IMG/VR virus record: IMGVR_UViG_3300050821_002131
Location: 1-21,619 of that record
DNA length: 21,619 bases
DNA from: a virus
Reading direction: 5' to 3' (one strand)
Each line of letters opens with the position of its first letter. The stretch's first letter is position 1. Both the position numbers and the translations under genes were made by a program. Below the pieces are notes generated by a model. That model had not been told where the DNA came from and did no database searches. It worked only from the letters and a program-made list of their open reading frames with translations. Shown here in pieces: positions 2,733 through 17,602 of the stretch.

Positions 2733-3755
2733 CTAGAACCCGGCCGAAATGATGGTGACCGCCTCCGGGCGCGGAGCCCAGCCGGAAGTCACGCGCCACT
2801 CGGACAGCACGTCGGTTGCGCCACCCGCCAGCGGCGAAGTGATCTCGACCGGCGCTGCCTTGTCGCAGTACATGAGCGTGCACGCATCGTTGCCGGGCTT
2901 GACTTCGGCAAAGACGTTGGTGTTGATCGTGCGCGCGCCCTTCGGCTTCTCGATCTTCGGCATGGTGATGACGATGGCATCGGTGCCACCCGCGCCCTTG
3001 CCGATCAGCGTGTCGTCGTAGGTCCACAGCAGCTTGTCGCCGTTCGTCATCAGAATCGCCTTGACGACGCCCGCCGTGCTCTCGGAGCCCGCACCAATCC
3101 GCTGGAACTGAACCAGCTGGACGATGCCCTGGTACTCCATCTGAGAAAGCAGGCGCTGCGGTCCACAGATCGTGAACTCGCGCCCGATGCCCAGCTGGTT
3201 GGTGCGCGTCTTCATCGCAGAAAACTGCGAGGTGATGAAGAACGCCAGTTCGCCGTTGTCGTACGTCGAGATCGTGGTGTGGCCCGACGAATCGGGCGGC
3301 AGGTTGATGGCAAACGCGCCCGCCGCATTGAGCAGGCCCTCGCCATTCTGCGGCTGGAAGCCATAGAGCAGCGCATTGCGGGCCAGCTGGAAGTGACCCT
3401 GGCGCATGCCGAGACGGTACGCCTCGGGCAGCGAGAAGTCCCAGCGGCCCGCCGCCGCCGTGTCGTGGTGATCGTACTCCGCGCGGACGCGCAGCAGATA
3501 GGTGGGCGTCTGGATCATCGACATGGCGATGGCCACGCCGGGCAGCTGGTTCGGCCCCATCGTGCCAGCTTCCATCTGCGTACGGATGTCCATGCGCTTG
3601 ATGTAGACCGACAGATCGCCGTCACCCAAGCGAGTGCGCGGCGCGCCGCCGTCGATCAGATCGAATGCGCCCGATGCCTGCGCATACGGCAGGATGATCT
3701 CCGGTTCAAAGAATGCCGGTTGAACCGTGATATAGGCGGGAGTGGAAATGCTCAT
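2733..3755 (-). CDS. Major capsid protein, DUF2184-type (340 aa)
   Basis: This forms the icosahedral head shell, presumably with the HK97 fold. The opening (MSISTPAYITVQPAFFEPEI), the RTQMEAGTMGPNQLPGVAI stretch, the region RWDFSLPEAYRLGMRQGHF and the helix-rich middle match my memory of DUF2184 capsid proteins. The length of 340 residues is normal for them. A TAGGAG ribosome-binding site lies 10 bases before the ATG. It is the last of the block protease/scaffold, decoration-like protein, capsid protein, the usual order in such phages. I see no N-terminal R-x-D-[A/S] motif, so if the shell protein is processed, it is not at that motif. The family call rests on recalled similarity. Confidence 0.85.
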   Translation of the reverse strand: MSISTPAYITVQPAFFEPEIILPYAQASGAFDLIDGGAPRTRLGDGDLSVYIKRMDIRTQMEAGTMGPNQLPGVAIAMSMIQTPTYLLRVRAEYDHHDTAAAGRWDFSLPEAYRLGMRQGHFQLARNALLYGFQPQNGEGLLNAAGAFAINLPPDSSGHTTISTYDNGELAFFITSQFSAMKTRTNQLGIGREFTICGPQRLLSQMEYQGIVQLVQFQRIGAGSESTAGVVKAILMTNGDKLLWTYDDTLIGKGAGGTDAIVITMPKIEKPKGARTINTNVFAEVKPGNDACTLMYCDKAAPVEITSPLAGGATDVLSEWRVTSGWAPRPEAVTIISAGF

Positions 3756-4682: not shown

Positions 4683-5654
4683 TTACTTTCTGGCCGCAGT
4701 GGTCGAGCCGAAGCCCGTGACGGCTTGGCCGACCGGCTGATTGCCGCTCATCCAAGTCTTGGGGTCACCGATGAAATCGGTGTAGGTGTGGCCGTTCTTG
4801 GTGTGAACGACCTCACGCATCTCGCCCTCGGGAACCGAAGCCGGCGAGCGCGCGACGGCGTCGGCCTGCTCCAAAATCTGCTTCTCGACGACGTCAAAGC
4901 CAGCCGAATCGACGGCGATCACGCCGAGATCGACGTCCTTGAATTGAGTGTGTTCCTTGAGGCCGTCGAGTAGGCGACGGCGGTAGATTAGCTTGGTCTC
5001 GCCCTGGAGCGAGCGCGGCGCGGACTTGCCGAACATGTTGTAGACCGCGTCGGCGCGGGCCTGCACGGCGAGCAGGCCGTTATAATCCTCGTCGCTCGGC
5101 TGAGCAGGAATCTTGCCCTCGAGTTCGTCGATGCGGGCGAGCAGCGCGTCGATCCGCTTGCTGCCTTCCGAATCGTGGCGACGAGACTTGTCGGCGCGTT
5201 CCTTCTCGTCCTCTTCCTCGGCATCGCGGCGACGCTTTTTCGCCTTGTCGAGAGCGACCGGCTCGGGCTCGCCCGCTTCCATCTCGGCGTCGGCGCAGTC
5301 GCGCTCCTCAGCGTCGTGGCGTTCCTTGAACTCGTCCTCTTCCTCCTCGTCCTTGCGCTTGGAGAACTTGAAGGCATCGGCACGCTTGCGCGCATCCTTG
5401 GCCTTCTCGGCCTTCTCGAGCGCTTCCTTCTGCTCCTCGGTCTCGGCGTCCTTCTTGAACTTCTCTTCGAAGTTGTCGAGCCGCTTGTTGGTCGAATCGA
5501 GCGCAGTGGCCACGGCATCGATACCCTTGAGTACCTTGTCGAGTTCCTTGCCGCCGTCGGCATCGGCGCGCGCCGTAGAAAGCAGCTTGTCCATCTCGTC
5601 GCAACGGGCCTTGTAGGCGTCGTCGCTCTCGCCGTTGATGCGTGCGAGCTTCAT
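4683..5654 (-). CDS. Predicted nested scaffolding protein from an internal in-frame start (323 aa)
   Basis: Inside the protease gene an ATG at 5654 is preceded by AAGAGGAG with an 8-base spacer, a better ribosome-binding site than that of the full-length gene. It lies exactly where the protease domain ends (residue 353 of the long form) and begins MKLARINGESDDAYKARC. The product would be the scaffold domain alone: an acidic and basic, Ala/Glu/Lys-rich coiled coil with few hydrophobic segments, then a compact C-terminal part. The arrangement matches lambda C/Nu3, where the scaffold is translated from an internal start of the protease gene. Expression is an inference from the site; the protein itself shares its sequence with the long form. 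Confidence 0.6.
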   Translation of the reverse strand: MKLARINGESDDAYKARCDEMDKLLSTARADADGGKELDKVLKGIDAVATALDSTNKRLDNFEEKFKKDAETEEQKEALEKAEKAKDARKRADAFKFSKRKDEEEEDEFKERHDAEERDCADAEMEAGEPEPVALDKAKKRRRDAEEEDEKERADKSRRHDSEGSKRIDALLARIDELEGKIPAQPSDEDYNGLLAVQARADAVYNMFGKSAPRSLQGETKLIYRRRLLDGLKEHTQFKDVDLGVIAVDSAGFDVVEKQILEQADAVARSPASVPEGEMREVVHTKNGHTYTDFIGDPKTWMSGNQPVGQAVTGFGSTTAARK

Positions 5655-6710
5655 GTCATCATCTCCTCTTACAGTGGTGTTGTCGTCCACGATGGTAGAT
5701 TCGACCCCGTCTGGCGGGCCGCCGTTGTCCCACACGCCATGTTCGCACACGGCGATGTGATCGAGTAGAGAAGGCTTGCCCTCAATCAGGAAGGTCGAAC
5801 CATCCTCTTGCTTAAACGTGCTGTTCACATCGGGGTCTTTCCAGACCACGGCCGGCGAAGTCGACAGCTTGTCTTCGCACAGCATCTGGGCAGCCGACGC
5901 ATCCATGATGCGGGCCACGCCCCAGATTTCGTCTCTCTTCTGGTACGGCACGACTATCGAGCCGATGTTGCGCTTGCGATATTCCTTAGTGTTGAGTATC
6001 GATGTCGCCGGATGCTCGAGAATTACCGGCAGGCCGTTGCAGCGGTCGATGAAGTCCTGGTTCAAGTAAATAGACGGGTCGCGCCACACGTGCTCGTTGA
6101 ATTTCTGGCGGTAGGTAGAGCCCGTGCCGGTGATGCGAATGTCGACGAACGTGATGTTGTCGTAGCTCTGCGGCGAAGTAAGCTCACCAGCCGCAATCGC
6201 CTTCGCCACGTCCATCTCGTGCATCGAGAACCGGCGCAGTGCAATGCGCACTCCCGGATGCAAAGGTTCGGGCGGCTCCGTAATGGGTGCCCACGACCAG
6301 CCAACGTGCTCCGGAGAGCCGCTAGGTCCGAGGACCGGAATAAACTGGCTGTCTACCCGAAGGATGAAAGTGGTGAAGTCGACCTGCTCGCCGCCCAAGA
6401 TCGCCACCTGATCGGTGACGCCGACGACCGGGGCGACGGTCTCGCCGCTCGGCGGGGTCGTGGGGTTAGCTCCTGTAGTCTCCCGTGGGGCGACGCGCCT
6501 CGTCCAGGGCCGCAGAGCCTTAGGGTCGGCCTGATATCCCGCCTCCTCTAAACACTCTCGGATGGCCGCCGTCTGGGCGTCCTCGCCCTCCTCCAGCCGG
6601 CCGCCCGGTATACCCCAAGTCCCGGGCATGTCGCCCCCCGGACCGCGCTTGAGAAACAAGGCGCAGTTGGACTTGGTGTCGAGTATAAGGATGCCGGCCG
6701 CCTGGATCAT
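4683..6710 (-). CDS. Nudix hydrolase-DUF2213 prohead protease-scaffold fusion (675 aa)
   Basis: Three parts are visible. Residues 1-150 form a Nudix domain with a complete signature: G37, E43, then R51-E52-x-x-E55-E56-x-G58 within GGRLEEGEDAQTAAIRECL. Residues about 160-340 match the DUF2213 prohead protease family as I remember it (DIRITGTGSTY, YVWRDP-like VWRDPSIYLN, CNGLPVILEHP, LSTSPAVVW, GKPSLLDHIAVCEHGVW); likely catalytic candidates are H233, S283 or S285 and D317/H318. Residues 353-675 are highly charged, predicted coiled coil and scaffold-like, with R-x-D-[A/S] tetrapeptides at 381, 443, 464, 494, 511, 519 and 552. The gene follows the 885-residue protein after a 3-base gap. A strong internal start (5654) splits off the scaffold part. 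The Nudix substrate is unknown. Confidence 0.85.
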   Translation of the reverse strand: MIQAAGILILDTKSNCALFLKRGPGGDMPGTWGIPGGRLEEGEDAQTAAIRECLEEAGYQADPKALRPWTRRVAPRETTGANPTTPPSGETVAPVVGVTDQVAILGGEQVDFTTFILRVDSQFIPVLGPSGSPEHVGWSWAPITEPPEPLHPGVRIALRRFSMHEMDVAKAIAAGELTSPQSYDNITFVDIRITGTGSTYRQKFNEHVWRDPSIYLNQDFIDRCNGLPVILEHPATSILNTKEYRKRNIGSIVVPYQKRDEIWGVARIMDASAAQMLCEDKLSTSPAVVWKDPDVNSTFKQEDGSTFLIEGKPSLLDHIAVCEHGVWDNGGPPDGVESTIVDDNTTVRGDDDMKLARINGESDDAYKARCDEMDKLLSTARADADGGKELDKVLKGIDAVATALDSTNKRLDNFEEKFKKDAETEEQKEALEKAEKAKDARKRADAFKFSKRKDEEEEDEFKERHDAEERDCADAEMEAGEPEPVALDKAKKRRRDAEEEDEKERADKSRRHDSEGSKRIDALLARIDELEGKIPAQPSDEDYNGLLAVQARADAVYNMFGKSAPRSLQGETKLIYRRRLLDGLKEHTQFKDVDLGVIAVDSAGFDVVEKQILEQADAVARSPASVPEGEMREVVHTKNGHTYTDFIGDPKTWMSGNQPVGQAVTGFGSTTAARK
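5663..5670 (-). promoter_or_regulatory. Internal Shine-Dalgarno site for the nested scaffold
   Basis: On the minus strand AAGAGGAG is followed by the 8-base spacer ATGATGAC and the ATG at 5654. The nearly full match to the anti-Shine-Dalgarno sequence inside a coding region, at a domain boundary, suggests a real second initiation site. The codons it covers encode R-G-D-D-D, a linker. Confidence 0.6.
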
Positions 6711-6713
6711 GAC

Positions 6714-9371
6714 CTAGAACTCACCTACGAACTGGCCGCCCTTCCTCGAGATGAAGACATTGCCTTCATCCTCTTCGCCGTTGTCGTCCATGAACGTGAT
6801 CTTGTAGACCGCCTCACTGCCATCCTTGTTGAAACCGGAGAACCGCGACCGCTTGATGTCGCCTAGATCACCATATCCAGAATTGTTGAGCGCCTTCTTG
6901 ATCTCGCCCAAGCTTAGCATTCTAAGTGCGTTACTGTCCATCTCTTTCGAAGTCGGCGGGGTCCGCACTGCATCATGTCGCGTCTGAGGAAGAGCACGCC
7001 GGTTGAGTTCCTTGATGGCTAGCGGGTTTCCCGCCTTGATCTGCATCGCCAGCCCAACCGCGCTGAGTTCACTGAACCTCATATTGCCTCTTGTCGAATC
7101 AGAACGAGAATTGCCCTCATCGCGCAGCTTCCTGTATTTGCGATGAGCAGTCGACGTCCGCGATGAAAACTCACCGTGCGTCTTTTTTGCCTCCTCCCAC
7201 GCAAGGCGAGCCTTCTCCACTTCATCAGGCTCGGCATCCTTGCGCGTCGTCTTGCCGGTGCCATTGCAATCCTGGCAGCCCGCACCCTTGCACGACGGAC
7301 AGTCCCACGCAGCATCGATCCCGAGAGATGGAGTTTTCGGCTCGATGCGAACATCGACGTCTTTGCGCGTCAGCGCATCGGCGCGGCGGATCGTGCGATG
7401 GACGCCCGACGCCAGCCGGTCGAGCCGGTCGCGCACCATCAGCAAATCTGAATCCTTGCGAGCAGCCACCAGAGCACGTCCTTTCAAAGGTTCATATTCA
7501 AGCGCATCGGCCCTCAAGTCCTTGGCAGGAATGTCAGGCGTCTGGCGATGCGGGGCATTGAGCTTGACCCAATATCCGCCACCATACGTGCTGGCAGGCT
7601 CTTCAACGGTTCCTGTGGCTCCCTTGAACGGCCCGTTGATTACGGTGACCTTCTGACCCCTTCGGAACTCAGCATCGCCGCGCCTATGCTGGTTCTTGAG
7701 CCACGGAATGTCGCCCAACACCTTAGACGACGACTCATCACCGCGCCACACGATTTTGTCATTCTCATCCGCATTGATGATTTGCAGTGACGGGACATCG
7801 ACACCACGCTGGTTCTTCTCCAGTTCGCGGCGCACCTTAGGCAGGGCCGCCTTAGCTTCGGCCAACGTCTTGAAGTAACCGCCACCGCCACCCGCGTCAG
7901 AGCCATTGATGAGAATGTGAAACGGGTACTCGCGCGCATCGACCCGCACGCTATCCCAGCGCACCGACAGGATGTAGCTCTCATCGGGCAGCCCGCGCAT
8001 CGCAATGATGCGACCCTTCTTGCCGTCCTTCTCGTACTTGTCGCCGGTCTTGAGCACGCGGCCTTCCATCGCCGGAACCGGAATGCGCTCGGGCAACTTG
8101 ATCTCGGCATCGCCCTTGTACGTGCCTGCCAACCCGCCGCTCATAGACGCCTTCATGAATTCGCGCCCGGCGTCCTCTGCCTTGGCGCGCAGCATCTCGA
8201 GTTCGCGCTTAACGGCCGGATCGCGCCTCGACTTCTCGCCGGCGCGTATGGCATCCTCGAATGCCTGCGCCTTGCGCGCCGCCGTCTGAAAGCGAGTGCG
8301 AATGGCGCGCGGAATCTTGTTTAGATCGTCGCCCGCGTCGTGCCGGTCGTGCGCCGTCGCTGCCTCGATCATAGTCTGCAAAATGTCGAGGACGCCGTCG
8401 CCGCGCGCCTCGACTTCGGCGTCGATGATAGCCTCCTCGCAAGTCCGAATGTCGCGCTTCAACGCCTCGCGCTCGTCCGGCGTGGTCGCGCCGTTCAGCT
8501 GCTCACGCAGATACTTGATGTTGTGCTTCATCTTCTCGACGAACTTGGTAACGCCGGTCAGCGTCGGCGCGACTTCGGCGTCATCAACATACTTTCTAGT
8601 GCCCGGCAAGCCATGCTTTACTGCCGTTCGCCCATATTCACCAGTCTTTTGAGCTTCCTTGCGTGCGTCGCGATAACCGCGCATAATTTCTTGTACATTA
8701 TAGCCCATCGCCTTGCCACTATTAGTCGCGTAGTGATGCGCCGCCTCTTCGGTCTTGGCATCCCGGTGCATCGCCTGTCCGAGATCATAGGCCGCTTTCT
8801 TATTGTCGATTGCATCACCACGTACCCATGGGAACTTCCAGCGCTGCACTTCAAGGAAGCGCTTGTTGCGCACCGCCCAGTCGGGCAGCGTGCCGCCGCC
8901 TGCAACGATCGTTTCCATGTTGCGGCTCGCCTGCGGCGCGTGGTACTGGGTCGCGTTGCCATCCCAGTTGCCGCTCTCGGTACACAATTCACGGATCATG
9001 TCGAGGTTGGACGTCGCCGCCTGCAGCATGCCCTTCGTGACCTTGGCATCGCTGCGCGCTTCGCCATCGATGTACTCTTTAGCCAGCGCCTCGGTCTTGA
9101 ACACGCGACTACCTACGTAGTAGTGACCCTCGGCGCGCTTGTCGATGACCTGTCCTTTGTACTCGATCTGCACCGCCATGTCGGCCGCCATCAGCGCATC
9201 GACGCGTCCCTTGAGCGCCGCCGCGCCCGCAATCAGTCCATCGAGCGCCGCATCGACGCCGCTTATCTTGCCCGCGTTCTTAGATGCATAAAAGACCTTC
9301 TTGGCTTCCTTGGAGCCGTATTCCTTCTCCATGTTGCCCATGATCTTGTTGCCCTTGGAGGTGAGCGGCAT
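6714..9371 (-). CDS. Large modular head-region protein with KOW and zinc-ribbon modules (885 aa)
   Basis: The start ATG at 9371 follows AGGGAG. Residues 1-45 (KGNKIMGNMEKEYGSKEAKK, FYASKNAGKISGVD) match a short N-terminal module that I recall from many phage proteins. The rest is modular: a helical part at 190-410, a beta-rich part at about 425-490, a KOW/SH3-like module at 570-605 (RRGQKVTVINGPFKGATGTV), and a DnaJ-like zinc ribbon at 691-706 with C691, C694, C699 and C702 in two CxxCxGxG motifs. A separate C-terminal domain occupies about 815-885. Ten R-x-D-A tetrapeptides (from residues 56, 106, 184, 343, 476, 564, 620, 663, 710 and 798) lie mostly between modules. It stands next to the protease gene and may be an internal head protein or a cleaved polyprotein. 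No catalytic function is evident. Confidence 0.8.
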   Translation of the reverse strand: MPLTSKGNKIMGNMEKEYGSKEAKKVFYASKNAGKISGVDAALDGLIAGAAALKGRVDALMAADMAVQIEYKGQVIDKRAEGHYYVGSRVFKTEALAKEYIDGEARSDAKVTKGMLQAATSNLDMIRELCTESGNWDGNATQYHAPQASRNMETIVAGGGTLPDWAVRNKRFLEVQRWKFPWVRGDAIDNKKAAYDLGQAMHRDAKTEEAAHHYATNSGKAMGYNVQEIMRGYRDARKEAQKTGEYGRTAVKHGLPGTRKYVDDAEVAPTLTGVTKFVEKMKHNIKYLREQLNGATTPDEREALKRDIRTCEEAIIDAEVEARGDGVLDILQTMIEAATAHDRHDAGDDLNKIPRAIRTRFQTAARKAQAFEDAIRAGEKSRRDPAVKRELEMLRAKAEDAGREFMKASMSGGLAGTYKGDAEIKLPERIPVPAMEGRVLKTGDKYEKDGKKGRIIAMRGLPDESYILSVRWDSVRVDAREYPFHILINGSDAGGGGGYFKTLAEAKAALPKVRRELEKNQRGVDVPSLQIINADENDKIVWRGDESSSKVLGDIPWLKNQHRRGDAEFRRGQKVTVINGPFKGATGTVEEPASTYGGGYWVKLNAPHRQTPDIPAKDLRADALEYEPLKGRALVAARKDSDLLMVRDRLDRLASGVHRTIRRADALTRKDVDVRIEPKTPSLGIDAAWDCPSCKGAGCQDCNGTGKTTRKDAEPDEVEKARLAWEEAKKTHGEFSSRTSTAHRKYRKLRDEGNSRSDSTRGNMRFSELSAVGLAMQIKAGNPLAIKELNRRALPQTRHDAVRTPPTSKEMDSNALRMLSLGEIKKALNNSGYGDLGDIKRSRFSGFNKDGSEAVYKITFMDDNGEEDEGNVFISRKGGQFVGEF

Positions 9372-9655: not shown

Positions 9656-10705
9656 TCAGGGCGTGTTTAAGGGGAAAAACATCGTCAGAAGTCCGGGCGG
9701 ACCGCCAACCGGCGTCGGGCCGTAAGTCTTGGTGAGCGTGTCGGTCGCCACCGCAGTCTCGGCTATGTTTACCGCCACTACCAGCAGTTCAAACGGCGTA
9801 TCGGTCACTGGTGCGCTCTCCACTACCGCCACCACAAACGTCGCGGTCTCGCTCACCGAATCCAGAGCACTCACTGCCTCGACGACGGCGGCCGACGGGT
9901 TGTTGGCCGCGCTTGGCGCATCGGCAGCTGCTGCCGCCTCGCTGATCGCCGCTGCAAACGCGCCCAGCACTGAAATCACATCGGCAGCCGTGCTCGCCTC
10001 GACTATCGCTCCCACCATCGTCGCCACGACTGAGACCAGATCAGCTGCAGCTGCCGCTTCACTAATACTGGCCTGCGCGGCCAGGGTCGCGGCCGGCGTG
10101 TCGCTCGCCGCCCCAGCCTCCGAAATCGCCCCGCTCATCGAAATCGTATAACTGACGGTGTCGGTTGCGGACAAAGCCTCGGTGATCGACACCGGAATGG
10201 TGACTATTGCATTTACCGTGTCGGTCGCCGTCAGCGCTTCGGTGATAGACGCCGCCGCCGACATCACTTCCGATGGAGCGTCCTGCGCGAGCGAACTCTC
10301 CGAGATCGTGGCCGTGGCCGCCATCGTTTCAGATACCGAATCGGTCGCAGTTAAAGCCTCCGTCAAGCTCGCCGTCGCCGCCATGGTCTCTGATACTGAA
10401 TCCGTGGCCGCAGGCCCGTTTTCGTTGACCGCTTCCAGGGCCACGACGCTCACTGTATCTATGATGACCGAACCCGTCTCCTGCCTGTCTGCCGTGGCCG
10501 CCATGGTGGCAGATGGCGTATCCGTCGCGCTCGCCGCGTCACTGACGGCTGCAGTCGCCGCCATAACCTCCGATACCGAATCGGTTGCGCTCGCCGCGTC
10601 GCTCACCGAAACCGCTATAGTGCCGCCCGAAGGCGCAGCCGGCGCGTATTGGACCGCGTAATTGAACTTCGGCGGAGCGCGATGCGCCTGAAAGGTCGGC
10701 GGCAT
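9656..10705 (-). CDS. Repeat-built fibre-like structural protein (349 aa, fifteen 20-residue repeats)
   Basis: The start ATG at 10705 overlaps the upstream stop (TGATG). Residues 1-32 (MPPTFQAHRAPPKFNYAVQY...) form an anchor segment. Residues 33-329 are fifteen 20-residue repeats, one of them heavily diverged and the last shortened. Each contains a [ST]-[EDV]-[AS] element followed by A-x-D-[ST]-x-S and an Ala/Val-rich end, for example SLTEALTATDSVSETMAATA. Residues 330-349 are a Pro/Gly-rich tail (PTPVGGPPGLLTMFFPLNTP). The regular spacing, small residues and a conserved Asp suggest a beta-solenoid or extended fibre. There is no signal peptide and no Cys. It is probably a virion surface fibre; whether head or tail is open. 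Confidence 0.75.
   Translation of the reverse strand: MPPTFQAHRAPPKFNYAVQYAPAAPSGGTIAVSVSDAASATDSVSEVMAATAAVSDAASATDTPSATMAATADRQETGSVIIDTVSVVALEAVNENGPAATDSVSETMAATASLTEALTATDSVSETMAATATISESSLAQDAPSEVMSAAASITEALTATDTVNAIVTIPVSITEALSATDTVSYTISMSGAISEAGAASDTPAATLAAQASISEAAAAADLVSVVATMVGAIVEASTAADVISVLGAFAAAISEAAAAADAPSAANNPSAAVVEAVSALDSVSETATFVVAVVESAPVTDTPFELLVVAVNIAETAVATDTLTKTYGPTPVGGPPGLLTMFFPLNTP
9719..10609 (-). repeat. Tandem 60-bp coding repeats (15 copies)
   Basis: The fifteen 20-residue repeats correspond to 60-bp DNA units. They have diverged at the DNA level, so they are old duplications rather than a recent expansion, except that several copies ending in M-A-A-T-A are still close to each other at the promoter-proximal end (about 10190-10610). 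The repeat number could vary between relatives. Confidence 0.8.
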
Positions 10706-16017: not shown

Positions 16018-17602
16018 TCCTGCCTCCTGTTTTCTTCAACGAATCGAGCGAGCGTCTAAACTCGATCAGCGAGCGGTCGACGCGCGTAGAATCGGAGCGC
16101 ATCGGCTTTGGTGGCTTGGGCACCGCCAGCTTTTCTTTCGTGGGGTCTTCGGTATCGCCGCCCTCGCCGCCGTCCTCGGCTCCGCCGCCCGCTGCGGCGT
16201 CCGCCTCGGCCTGCTGCTTCTGCTTCTCCTGCTCGACGGCGAACTTGCGCATCTCGTCGTAATCGAAGTTGAGCGGCGAGCCGAACAGCAGCTTGAGTTC
16301 GTTGAACGCGTCGCACGCCCACTCAATAGCGATCATCCGGTTTTCCGGGTCCAGTAGTGGTAGGAATACTTCAAGCAGCGCAACCACAGCGCGCAGCTTG
16401 ACGTCATCCACTTTGACAAGCTCACTGTCCGGCTCCTTGAGCAGTGACGGCCACTCGGTGGAAAACGCGTTGCTCCACTTGGTGAACGCCACCTTGTAAT
16501 CGACCTTGCCGTACTCGTCCGGGAAGCGCTCCTGGATGGTCTTGTAGAAGTCGGGATTCCAAGCACGGTAGCGAACGATCTTGTCCATCCACTCGTACAG
16601 CGGGTCCATCTGCTCGCGTATCTTGTCCACGAACTGCGCGATCTGCTTGGCATCCTCAGTGCCTTCACCGAAGCCCTCGGCCAGCGTCTCCTGCGTCATC
16701 AGCTTGGCCGGCATCGGAACCGCCGATGCGATGTTTTCCAGGACGTCAGTGCGCACCGCTTTCAGCACGCCATCGAGGTTCTGCAGGTTGAGCGATTCGA
16801 TCTTGTCGTCGACGCCGATCGACAGCACGTTGTTAGTCTGACCCTGCTGCAGGATCACCCGCTTGAATGACGTAATCGCGTCCATCACGCCATCGATGAT
16901 GGAACCCGCTTGCTTGACCATGGCGACGAGCAGACCGACCTTGCGGGCCGCCATGTCATCGGCCACCATCGTCGATATGAAGGTCTTGAGCGGAAACAAC
17001 GCGCGCTGATAAACCGAACGGCCAGTGAAGCCGAACGCCGCCGACTGGTACTCGATGTAGATTGGCCGCTCGTGCATCTGCACGAAGGCGCGCGTCCGGT
17101 GGAAGCTCGAGCCTGATACCGAAATCTCGCGCACGTGCTGGAAGTCCATGGCCAGTGGGTCCTGGTTGAGCACCAGCGAGCCCGCGACGTTGAGCGGATC
17201 ATAGACGTTGAACGAGATGTCCTGCTTATAGAGCTTGTCGAAATCGACCGGCTCCTGGGTCTTCGCACCACGCTCCATCAGTGCGATCGCACCGATGCCG
17301 TAGATGCGCGACGTGATCATGAGCGTCGCTGCAAAGACGTCGATATTTAGCTTCTTCCACTCCTCTTCGAACGCCTCGACCACGACCTGCTCCGGCGAAT
17401 CGGGCACCGTGATCTTGCGCTTCTGTGACTGTGCCAGTTCGATCGGCTTCTCGGCAATCTTGGCTCCGAGCGGGTGGAACAGATAGATTTGCTTGCACAA
17501 CTGATAGCCGGGCTGTGAACCCAGCGTAATGTCGTCCGCCATCAGCAACATCTGCAGCGATGTGCCGAGGTTGGAAGCATTGACAGTGACGGTGCCGTTC
17601 AT
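16007..17602 (-). CDS. Portal protein, DUF1073-type (531 aa)
   Basis: The portal forms the ring at the head vertex through which DNA enters and leaves. It is recognised from the family order I remember for DUF1073: a start with QPGYQLCKQIYLFHPLGAKI, a central domain with DFQHVREISVSGSSFHRTR and YEYQSAAFG-like IYIEYQSAAFGFTG, and VPMPAKLMTQETLAEGFGEG in the stem/wing part. The start ATG at 17602 overlaps the upstream TGA (TGATG). After about residue 440 the protein becomes low-complexity (Glu/Gly/Ala-rich) and then basic. The RSDSTR hexapeptide at about residue 502 is identical to one in the 885-residue protein, and may be a processing site. Confidence 0.85.
   Translation of the reverse strand: MNGTVTVNASNLGTSLQMLLMADDITLGSQPGYQLCKQIYLFHPLGAKIAEKPIELAQSQKRKITVPDSPEQVVVEAFEEEWKKLNIDVFAATLMITSRIYGIGAIALMERGAKTQEPVDFDKLYKQDISFNVYDPLNVAGSLVLNQDPLAMDFQHVREISVSGSSFHRTRAFVQMHERPIYIEYQSAAFGFTGRSVYQRALFPLKTFISTMVADDMAARKVGLLVAMVKQAGSIIDGVMDAITSFKRVILQQGQTNNVLSIGVDDKIESLNLQNLDGVLKAVRTDVLENIASAVPMPAKLMTQETLAEGFGEGTEDAKQIAQFVDKIREQMDPLYEWMDKIVRYRAWNPDFYKTIQERFPDEYGKVDYKVAFTKWSNAFSTEWPSLLKEPDSELVKVDDVKLRAVVALLEVFLPLLDPENRMIAIEWACDAFNELKLLFGSPLNFDYDEMRKFAVEQEKQKQQAEADAAAGGGAEDGGEGGDTEDPTKEKLAVPKPPKPMRSDSTRVDRSLIEFRRSLDSLKKTGGRNGR

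Follow-up and report, generated by a model that had tools for sequence, protein, structure and literature searches.

A recurrent R-x-D-[A/S] motif in a scaffold-fused DUF2213 protease and a putative modular cargo protein suggests processing by a phage prohead protease

The virus record IMGVR_UViG_3300050821_002131 (IMG/VR), positions 1 to 21,619 of which form the 21,619-nucleotide window analyzed here, contains a minus-strand cluster of head genes: terminase, portal, a morphogenesis gene, several small structural-type genes, P0001, P0002, one further gene, and the major capsid protein (MCP). P0001 is a modular protein of 885 residues, and P0002 is a fusion of a Nudix domain, a DUF2213 prohead protease and a scaffold (Table 1). 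The tetrapeptide R-x-D-[A/S] recurs in both. We propose, with a probability of roughly 0.78, that these tetrapeptides are sites at which the prohead protease dismantles the scaffold and releases modular head cargo. The proposal is built from comparative evidence on the motif, its specificity, conservation and position, the mosaic modules that it joins, and a capsid boundary that fits it in another DUF2213 lineage.

An earlier reading of the same DNA (the original prediction) had listed ten R-x-D-A and two R-x-D-S sites in P0001. Every R-x-D-A position was verified, and the R-x-D-S copies at residues 638 and 756 are present, but a third copy (RWDS 471) had been overlooked, as had a Lys variant, KGDA 419. 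P0001 therefore carries 10 R.DA, 3 R.DS and one Lys variant. Fewer than one R-x-D-A had been expected by chance, and the computed value is 0.65; none of 20,000 composition shuffles reached 10 copies, the maximum being 6. R.DA is also the most over-represented gapped three-residue pattern, both in P0001 and in the scaffold protein. A chance origin of the motif was rejected on the basis of these shuffles and the ranking of all gapped patterns. The seven sites previously noted in the scaffold part of P0002 were likewise recovered, as was the hexapeptide RSDSTR at the portal C terminus (residue 503), which is the same as that at P0001 residue 756. An extra copy in the P0002 Nudix domain, RVDS 118, is probably due to chance, because the Nudix region is not enriched in homologues (5 observed, 4.4 expected). 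No copy of R-x-D-[A/S] occurs in the nine other translated window proteins that were checked, including the MCP and the large terminase (TerL). As had been reported, codons vary between copies (CGC, CGT, CGG, CGA and AGG for Arg; GCG, GCC, GCA and GCT for Ala), and a DNA-level repeat was rejected for this reason.

Enrichment in homologues, whose absence would have refuted the original prediction, was found in a set of 67 non-redundant Nudix-DUF2213-scaffold fusion proteins. The motif [RK].D[AS] occurs 548 times in this set against 86 expected, an approximately sixfold excess; R.DA and R.DS are each 8-fold over expectation and K.DA 5-fold. Control motifs behave differently: [RK].E[AS] falls to half of expectation (38 versus 76), and the reversed motif stands at 1.1. 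Position 3 is an Asp that does not tolerate Glu, and position 4 is limited to Ala or Ser. The excess lies in the scaffold (347 versus 55) and not in the protease domain (6 versus 8), and sites also cluster at residue 552, the edge of the conserved C-terminal domain of P0002. An alignment of 37 sequences shows no variation at D554 and conservation of 90% or more at D383, D412, D496 and D513, whereas the surrounding scaffold has diverged and is hard to align. Portal C-terminal tails contain 11 sites, with 4.1 expected.

These controls bear on the possibility that the motif is a compositional or repeat-expansion artefact, in which a linker or a TolA-like KADAEE coil has spread by duplication. KADAEE runs are indeed found in the scaffold of enterobacterial homologues. 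However, the codons differ between copies, the P2 residue x and the flanks vary, the sites recur in non-coil cargo linkers, and shuffles, reversed motifs and Glu motifs are flat. The control motifs already largely refute this explanation, and we consider it very improbable.

The assignment of P0002 to DUF2213 (PF09979) is borderline yet consistent. A genome profile search scored 22.7 bits against a cut-off of 22, and whole-protein hmmscan gave 19.6 bits, slightly under it; the homologue L002 scored 30 bits. P0002 also matches the head maturation protease family phrog_530 (E 2e-6). When the predicted structure of the whole fusion was used as a query, a viral structure library yielded entries labelled DUF2213, prohead protease or prohead serine protease, and a PDB fold search gave Nudix domains alone among the matches listed. 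S285 is kept in 45 of 45 homologues, and H233 and D317-H318 in 44 of 45, which makes the Ser and His residues candidates for catalysis. P0002 was matched in 17 annotated phages (Pantoea PdC23, Klebsiella Chronis, Yersinia, Shewanella QDWS, Rac-SA53 and others); most of these matches are fusion homologues, and three, in large phages, are restricted to the Nudix domain. The Nudix hydrolase domain ahead of the protease is retained by most relatives and missing from Rac-SA53-type phages. Annotated toxin genes are also present in the Rac-SA53 prophage region, away from its head cluster.

Scanning IMG/VR gave at least 156 distinct loci that encode the capsid protein or the fusion, and at least 510 of 599 candidate stretches screened in one scan encode a relative of the capsid protein. 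To avoid choosing cargo open reading frames (ORFs) by the motif, we picked them by position alone, from the portal or morphogenesis gene to the fusion gene. The resulting 162 ORFs contain 134 copies of R.D[AS] against 19.4 expected (6.9-fold), with control motifs near 1. The motif stands at 0.65 to 0.95 of expectation in ORFs that precede the portal, follow the capsid gene or lie on the antisense strand. In a non-redundant set of 97 cargo ORFs that excludes the window, R.DA is the top gapped tri-residue pattern (65 versus 8.9). Both flanking genes are present at 129 loci; 64 of these loci encode a cargo ORF with one or more sites, and at 26 a cargo ORF contains at least three.

Many cargo ORFs are mosaic chains of 40- to 90-residue modules joined at the motif, including ribosome modulation factor (RMF) modules, KOW, DnaJ-type zinc motifs and repeated beta-beta-alpha units. 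One RMF module (PF04957, E 2e-7; L034:3-1244, residues 292-345) is bounded exactly by two motifs, and another (E 3e-6) occupies residues 135-180 of L037:6256-7104. Delivery of such a ribosome-hibernation factor from the head would be unusual. A SPOR-like unit occurs in the cargo of L032. Two types of N-terminal unit recur. The first, present in the window, follows the pattern MPLT..KG...YG...VFYASKN.G.I.GVD and is a free-standing 51-residue gene in MW202711, and occurs in other phages too. The second, MPLE.G.S....N..TE...GK..KQA.AIAY, turned up in 341 phage records, most of them from Pbunavirus, and in two phages examined is a free-standing gene of 65 to 68 residues between the morphogenesis and DUF2213 protease genes. 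Large ORFs also lie upstream of the protease gene at L055:1645-3660 and L121:5331-7214; matches to Alt-like ADP-ribosyltransferases (Pfam, PHROGs) came from two scanned cargo members, probably these two ORFs.

Within P0001, the original prediction had placed a KOW motif between sites 564 and 620 and a zinc ribbon between 663 and 710. The KOW motif is found at residues 572-591, with a Pfam match (E 1e-3) that falls short of the curated cut-off. The second module is located as described, but its label is better given as a DnaJ-type zinc motif: the cysteines at 691-702 (CPSCKGAGCQDCNGTG) form a CxxCxGxG pair with units CPSCKGAG and CQDCNGTG. A Pfam scan of P0001 detected KOW only and no peptidase domain.

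The layout of the motif resembles that recognized by known prohead proteases. The SPN3US protease gp245 has an experimentally mapped specificity of A-x-E↓S (↓ marks the cut; PMC10052503), and T4-like and phiKZ-like enzymes of this kind share with our motif a P3-x-P1 arrangement, with a free P2, an acidic P1 and a small P1'. They act in the prohead, where their substrates are the portal, the capsid protein and packaged ejection proteins, some of which are cut more than once. The window phage differs from these systems in having Arg or Lys at P3, Asp at P1 and a DUF2213 protease fused to Nudix and scaffold, and in that a single cargo protein has 13 to 14 sites between folded modules in place of an N-terminal propeptide.

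Pbunavirus provides a second DUF2213 lineage. Its head protease clearly belongs to DUF2213 (113 bits) and, as in the window phage, has a scaffold tail. The D↓S signal appears in the Pbunavirus scaffold, portal and capsid protein, and a small NIATE-type module gene lies between the morphogenesis and protease genes. Unlike the window phage, Pbunavirus has Ala at P3 (AMD↓S), a site in the capsid protein itself and no multi-module polyprotein. The Ab28 proteome (20,071 residues; L180, L204, L205) contains only three copies of AMDS, with 0.2 expected: one each in the portal (residue 72), the protease-scaffold protein (413) and the capsid protein (64↓65). In cryo-EM structures of the PB1-like phages E217 and Pa193, the capsid protein is visible from residue 66 only, and both the map and the liquid chromatography-mass spectrometry (LC-MS) data of the Pa193 portal lack its first 93 residues; the E217 authors suggested cleavage or disorder (PMC10329688, PMC11042391). 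A D↓S signal in which Ala replaces Arg at P3 would offer a simple and specific account of these missing N termini, and predicts that the mature capsid protein begins at Ser65 and the mature portal at Ser73. The stand-alone module gene of Pbunavirus is annotated as a virion protein, and Pa193 gp21, seen by LC-MS, would presumably correspond to it by gene order.

Cleavage by the DUF2213 protease, the explanation that the original prediction had favored, is supported on comparative grounds by the enrichment in scaffold and cargo, the flat controls, the SPN3US layout and the Pbunavirus AMD↓S boundary. The motif could conceivably be cut by a different protease, encoded by the host or elsewhere in the phage genome, either prior to injection into the next host or afterwards. 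The identity of the cutting enzyme does rest on inference, and post-injection processing has been proposed for polyvalent phage proteins (PMC5512222). However, the motif fills the DUF2213-fused scaffold in prophages of differing hosts (Burkholderiaceae, including Caballeronia and Paraburkholderia, and Enterobacterales) even where the cargo gene is absent, and we regard a different enzyme as improbable. Because these prophages have scaffold sites and no cargo gene, scaffold processing looks like the older role of the motif.

A further alternative is that the motif serves for binding rather than cleavage. A coil of the type KLVSECDALSSRLDAFE / KLDKLLSHLDSLSKRMDAME is shared by cargo ORFs (for example L020:686-1012 and L140:8053-9675) and the post-protease scaffold region (for example L114:7636-9510), and could be a docking device that brings cargo in; P0001 gives no score for it. 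R-x-D-[A/S] might similarly be a short helical signal that ties cargo to the scaffold or capsid interior along a disordered tether. The shared coil surrounds one RxDA copy, and with RxDA masked, 17 of 191 scaffold ORFs still match it with more than 7 bits, as does no portal, MCP, TerL, morphogenesis or antisense ORF; many scaffold sites also lie within predicted helices. Against docking, the strict Asp (no Glu) and the Ala/Ser position suit a protease better than a helix motif, cargo sites occupy varied contexts, often Gly/Lys/Ser-rich linkers, with nearly free flanking residues, and in Pbunavirus the visible capsid chain starts at the AMDS site. Docking in place of cleavage therefore seems unlikely to us, although the two roles can coexist. 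In a low-confidence predicted structure of a related cargo protein (L133 family; mean predicted local distance difference test score 55), 5 of 6 sites fall in segments below 50; we place no weight on this, because half of the chain is also below 50.

Other observations weigh against protease processing of scaffold and cargo. We infer that the sites are cut and that the products are packaged and delivered into the host, and the support in this phage group is comparative. The DUF2213 match of P0002 sits near the Pfam threshold, and several scaffold sites lie within long predicted helices, where a structural role is possible. The modules of P0001 beyond the first are orphans: with P0001 as query against public phages and viral contigs, relatives were detected for the first approximately 40 residues alone. 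The association of sites with module boundaries is real, yet modest: where local homology between two cargo proteins ends, a site lies no more than 3 residues away in 19% of cases, against 12% when the sites are shifted (0 of 2000 shifts). The choice of Arg or Lys does not co-vary between scaffold and cargo across phages (rho 0.06). Finally, the motif had appeared to be avoided in capsid and morphogenesis proteins (0 versus 14.5 and 7 versus 36, before redundancy removal). We do not claim avoidance, because the non-redundant MCP count (0 versus 1.8) is not significant and control motifs also fall in the morphogenesis protein.

If the motif is a protease signal, the following scheme, based on established prohead-protease biology, is the most likely. 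R-x-D↓[A/S], with Lys tolerated at P3, would be the recognition sequence of the scaffold-fused DUF2213 protease. The P0002 fusion and the P0001 polyprotein would be enclosed in the prohead during head assembly, and on maturation the activated protease would cut after the Asp of the motif. The scaffold would be fragmented and the portal tail probably trimmed, so that DNA can enter. P0001 would be cut at 13 to 14 places into 14 to 15 pieces, most of 42 to 159 residues, which would stay in the head and most likely leave it together with the DNA, forming a payload of proteins that act on the host or bind DNA. Packaging and ejection are proposed because of the gene position, the shared signal and the annotation of the stand-alone Pbunavirus module as a virion protein.

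Prohead proteases whose specificity is of the P3-x-acidic kind are already known, as are processed head proteins. The T4 internal proteins IPI-III and the P1 proteins DarA and DdrB are packaged in the head, processed by protease, and protect phage DNA or act on the host. A putative cleavage signal common to scaffold and cargo, as for the internal head proteins of T4 (IP) and the ejection-type proteins of phiKZ, was found here as well. Unlike the cargo polyprotein, IPI-III, DarA and DdrB are encoded by separate genes with one processing event each, and do not form a chain of products. The polyvalent proteins of phages and plasmids, which their describers likened to polyproteins (Iyer et al. 2017; PMC5512222), are multi-domain, mosaic and fast-shuffling and are thought to be delivered with DNA. 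Shuffling of domains between relatives, a trait of polyvalent proteins, is seen in the cargo ORFs. However, many polyvalent proteins hold embedded peptidases and large enzymatic domains (PMC5512222), whereas the cargo modules of the window phage are small, are mostly without known enzymatic domains, and have predicted cut sites that fit a prohead protease on a separate protein. The literature searched, which covered few subscription journals, contained no match for a mosaic chain in which small modules are linked by sites of the scaffold protease itself, so that absence is unproven.

The differently assembled cargo of many related phages points to an exchangeable payload, in which small proteins would be delivered along with the viral DNA. 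The broader proposal that a widespread tailed-phage group encodes a swappable multi-effector polyprotein, cut in the capsid into at least ten co-injected small proteins (RMF-like modules in some relatives), with any R-x-D-[A/S]-flanked module gaining delivery, seems to us evenly balanced. R-x-D↓A/S may be a readable code for finding protease substrates in a large phage group and a rule for splitting long uncharacterized phage proteins into small testable modules. The cargo gene is a candidate route by which one gene gives rise to many small host-acting proteins delivered by a phage.

Table 1. Coordinates of genes, predicted fragments and motif copies in the window. Residue numbers follow the site sequence.
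Feature	Position	Strand	Comment
885-residue modular cargo polyprotein P0001 (predicted)	6714..9371	-	between upstream structural genes and protease-scaffold gene
675-residue fusion P0002 (Nudix + DUF2213 prohead protease + scaffold)	4683..6710	-	
DUF2213 protease domain of P0002, about residues 166-341	5688..6215	-	
Scaffold region of P0002, about residues 342-546	5073..5687	-	cleavage motifs (putative) concentrated here
Major capsid protein	2733-3755	-	
Predicted fragment 1, residues 1-58, phrog_2423-type MPLT..KG module	9198..9371	-	stand-alone gene in other phages
Predicted fragment, residues 567-622, with KOW-like motif	7506..7673	-	
Predicted fragment, residues 666-712, with DnaJ-type CxxCxGxG pair	7236..7376	-	
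Site RVDA 56	9195..9206	-	P0001
Site RSDA 106	9045..9056	-	P0001
Site RGDA 184	8811..8822	-	P0001
Site RHDA 343	8334..8345	-	P0001
Lys variant KGDA 419	8106..8117	-	P0001
Site RWDS 471	7950..7961	-	P0001
Site RVDA 476	7935..7946	-	P0001
Site RGDA 564	7671..7682	-	P0001
Site RADA 620	7503..7514	-	P0001
Site RKDS 638	7449..7460	-	P0001
Site RADA 663	7374..7385	-	P0001
Site RKDA 710	7233..7244	-	P0001
Site RSDS 756	7095..7106	-	P0001
Site RHDA 798	6969..6980	-	P0001
Scaffold site RADA 381	5559..5570	-	P0002; D383 nearly invariant, 37 homologues
Scaffold site RADA 443	5373..5384	-	P0002
Scaffold site RHDA 464	5310..5321	-	P0002
Scaffold site RRDA 494	5220..5231	-	P0002; D496 nearly invariant, 37 homologues
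Scaffold site RHDS 511	5169..5180	-	P0002; D513 nearly invariant, 37 homologues
Scaffold site RIDA 519	5145..5156	-	P0002
Site RADA 552, border of scaffold and C-terminal domain	5046..5057	-	P0002; D554 invariant, 37 homologues
Portal C-terminal site RSDS 503	16088..16099	-	portal

Near the cargo gene, at window positions 9656-10705, a 349-residue protein contains repeats of about 22 residues of the type ISEA..ATD.VSE.MAATA and is without RxDA.

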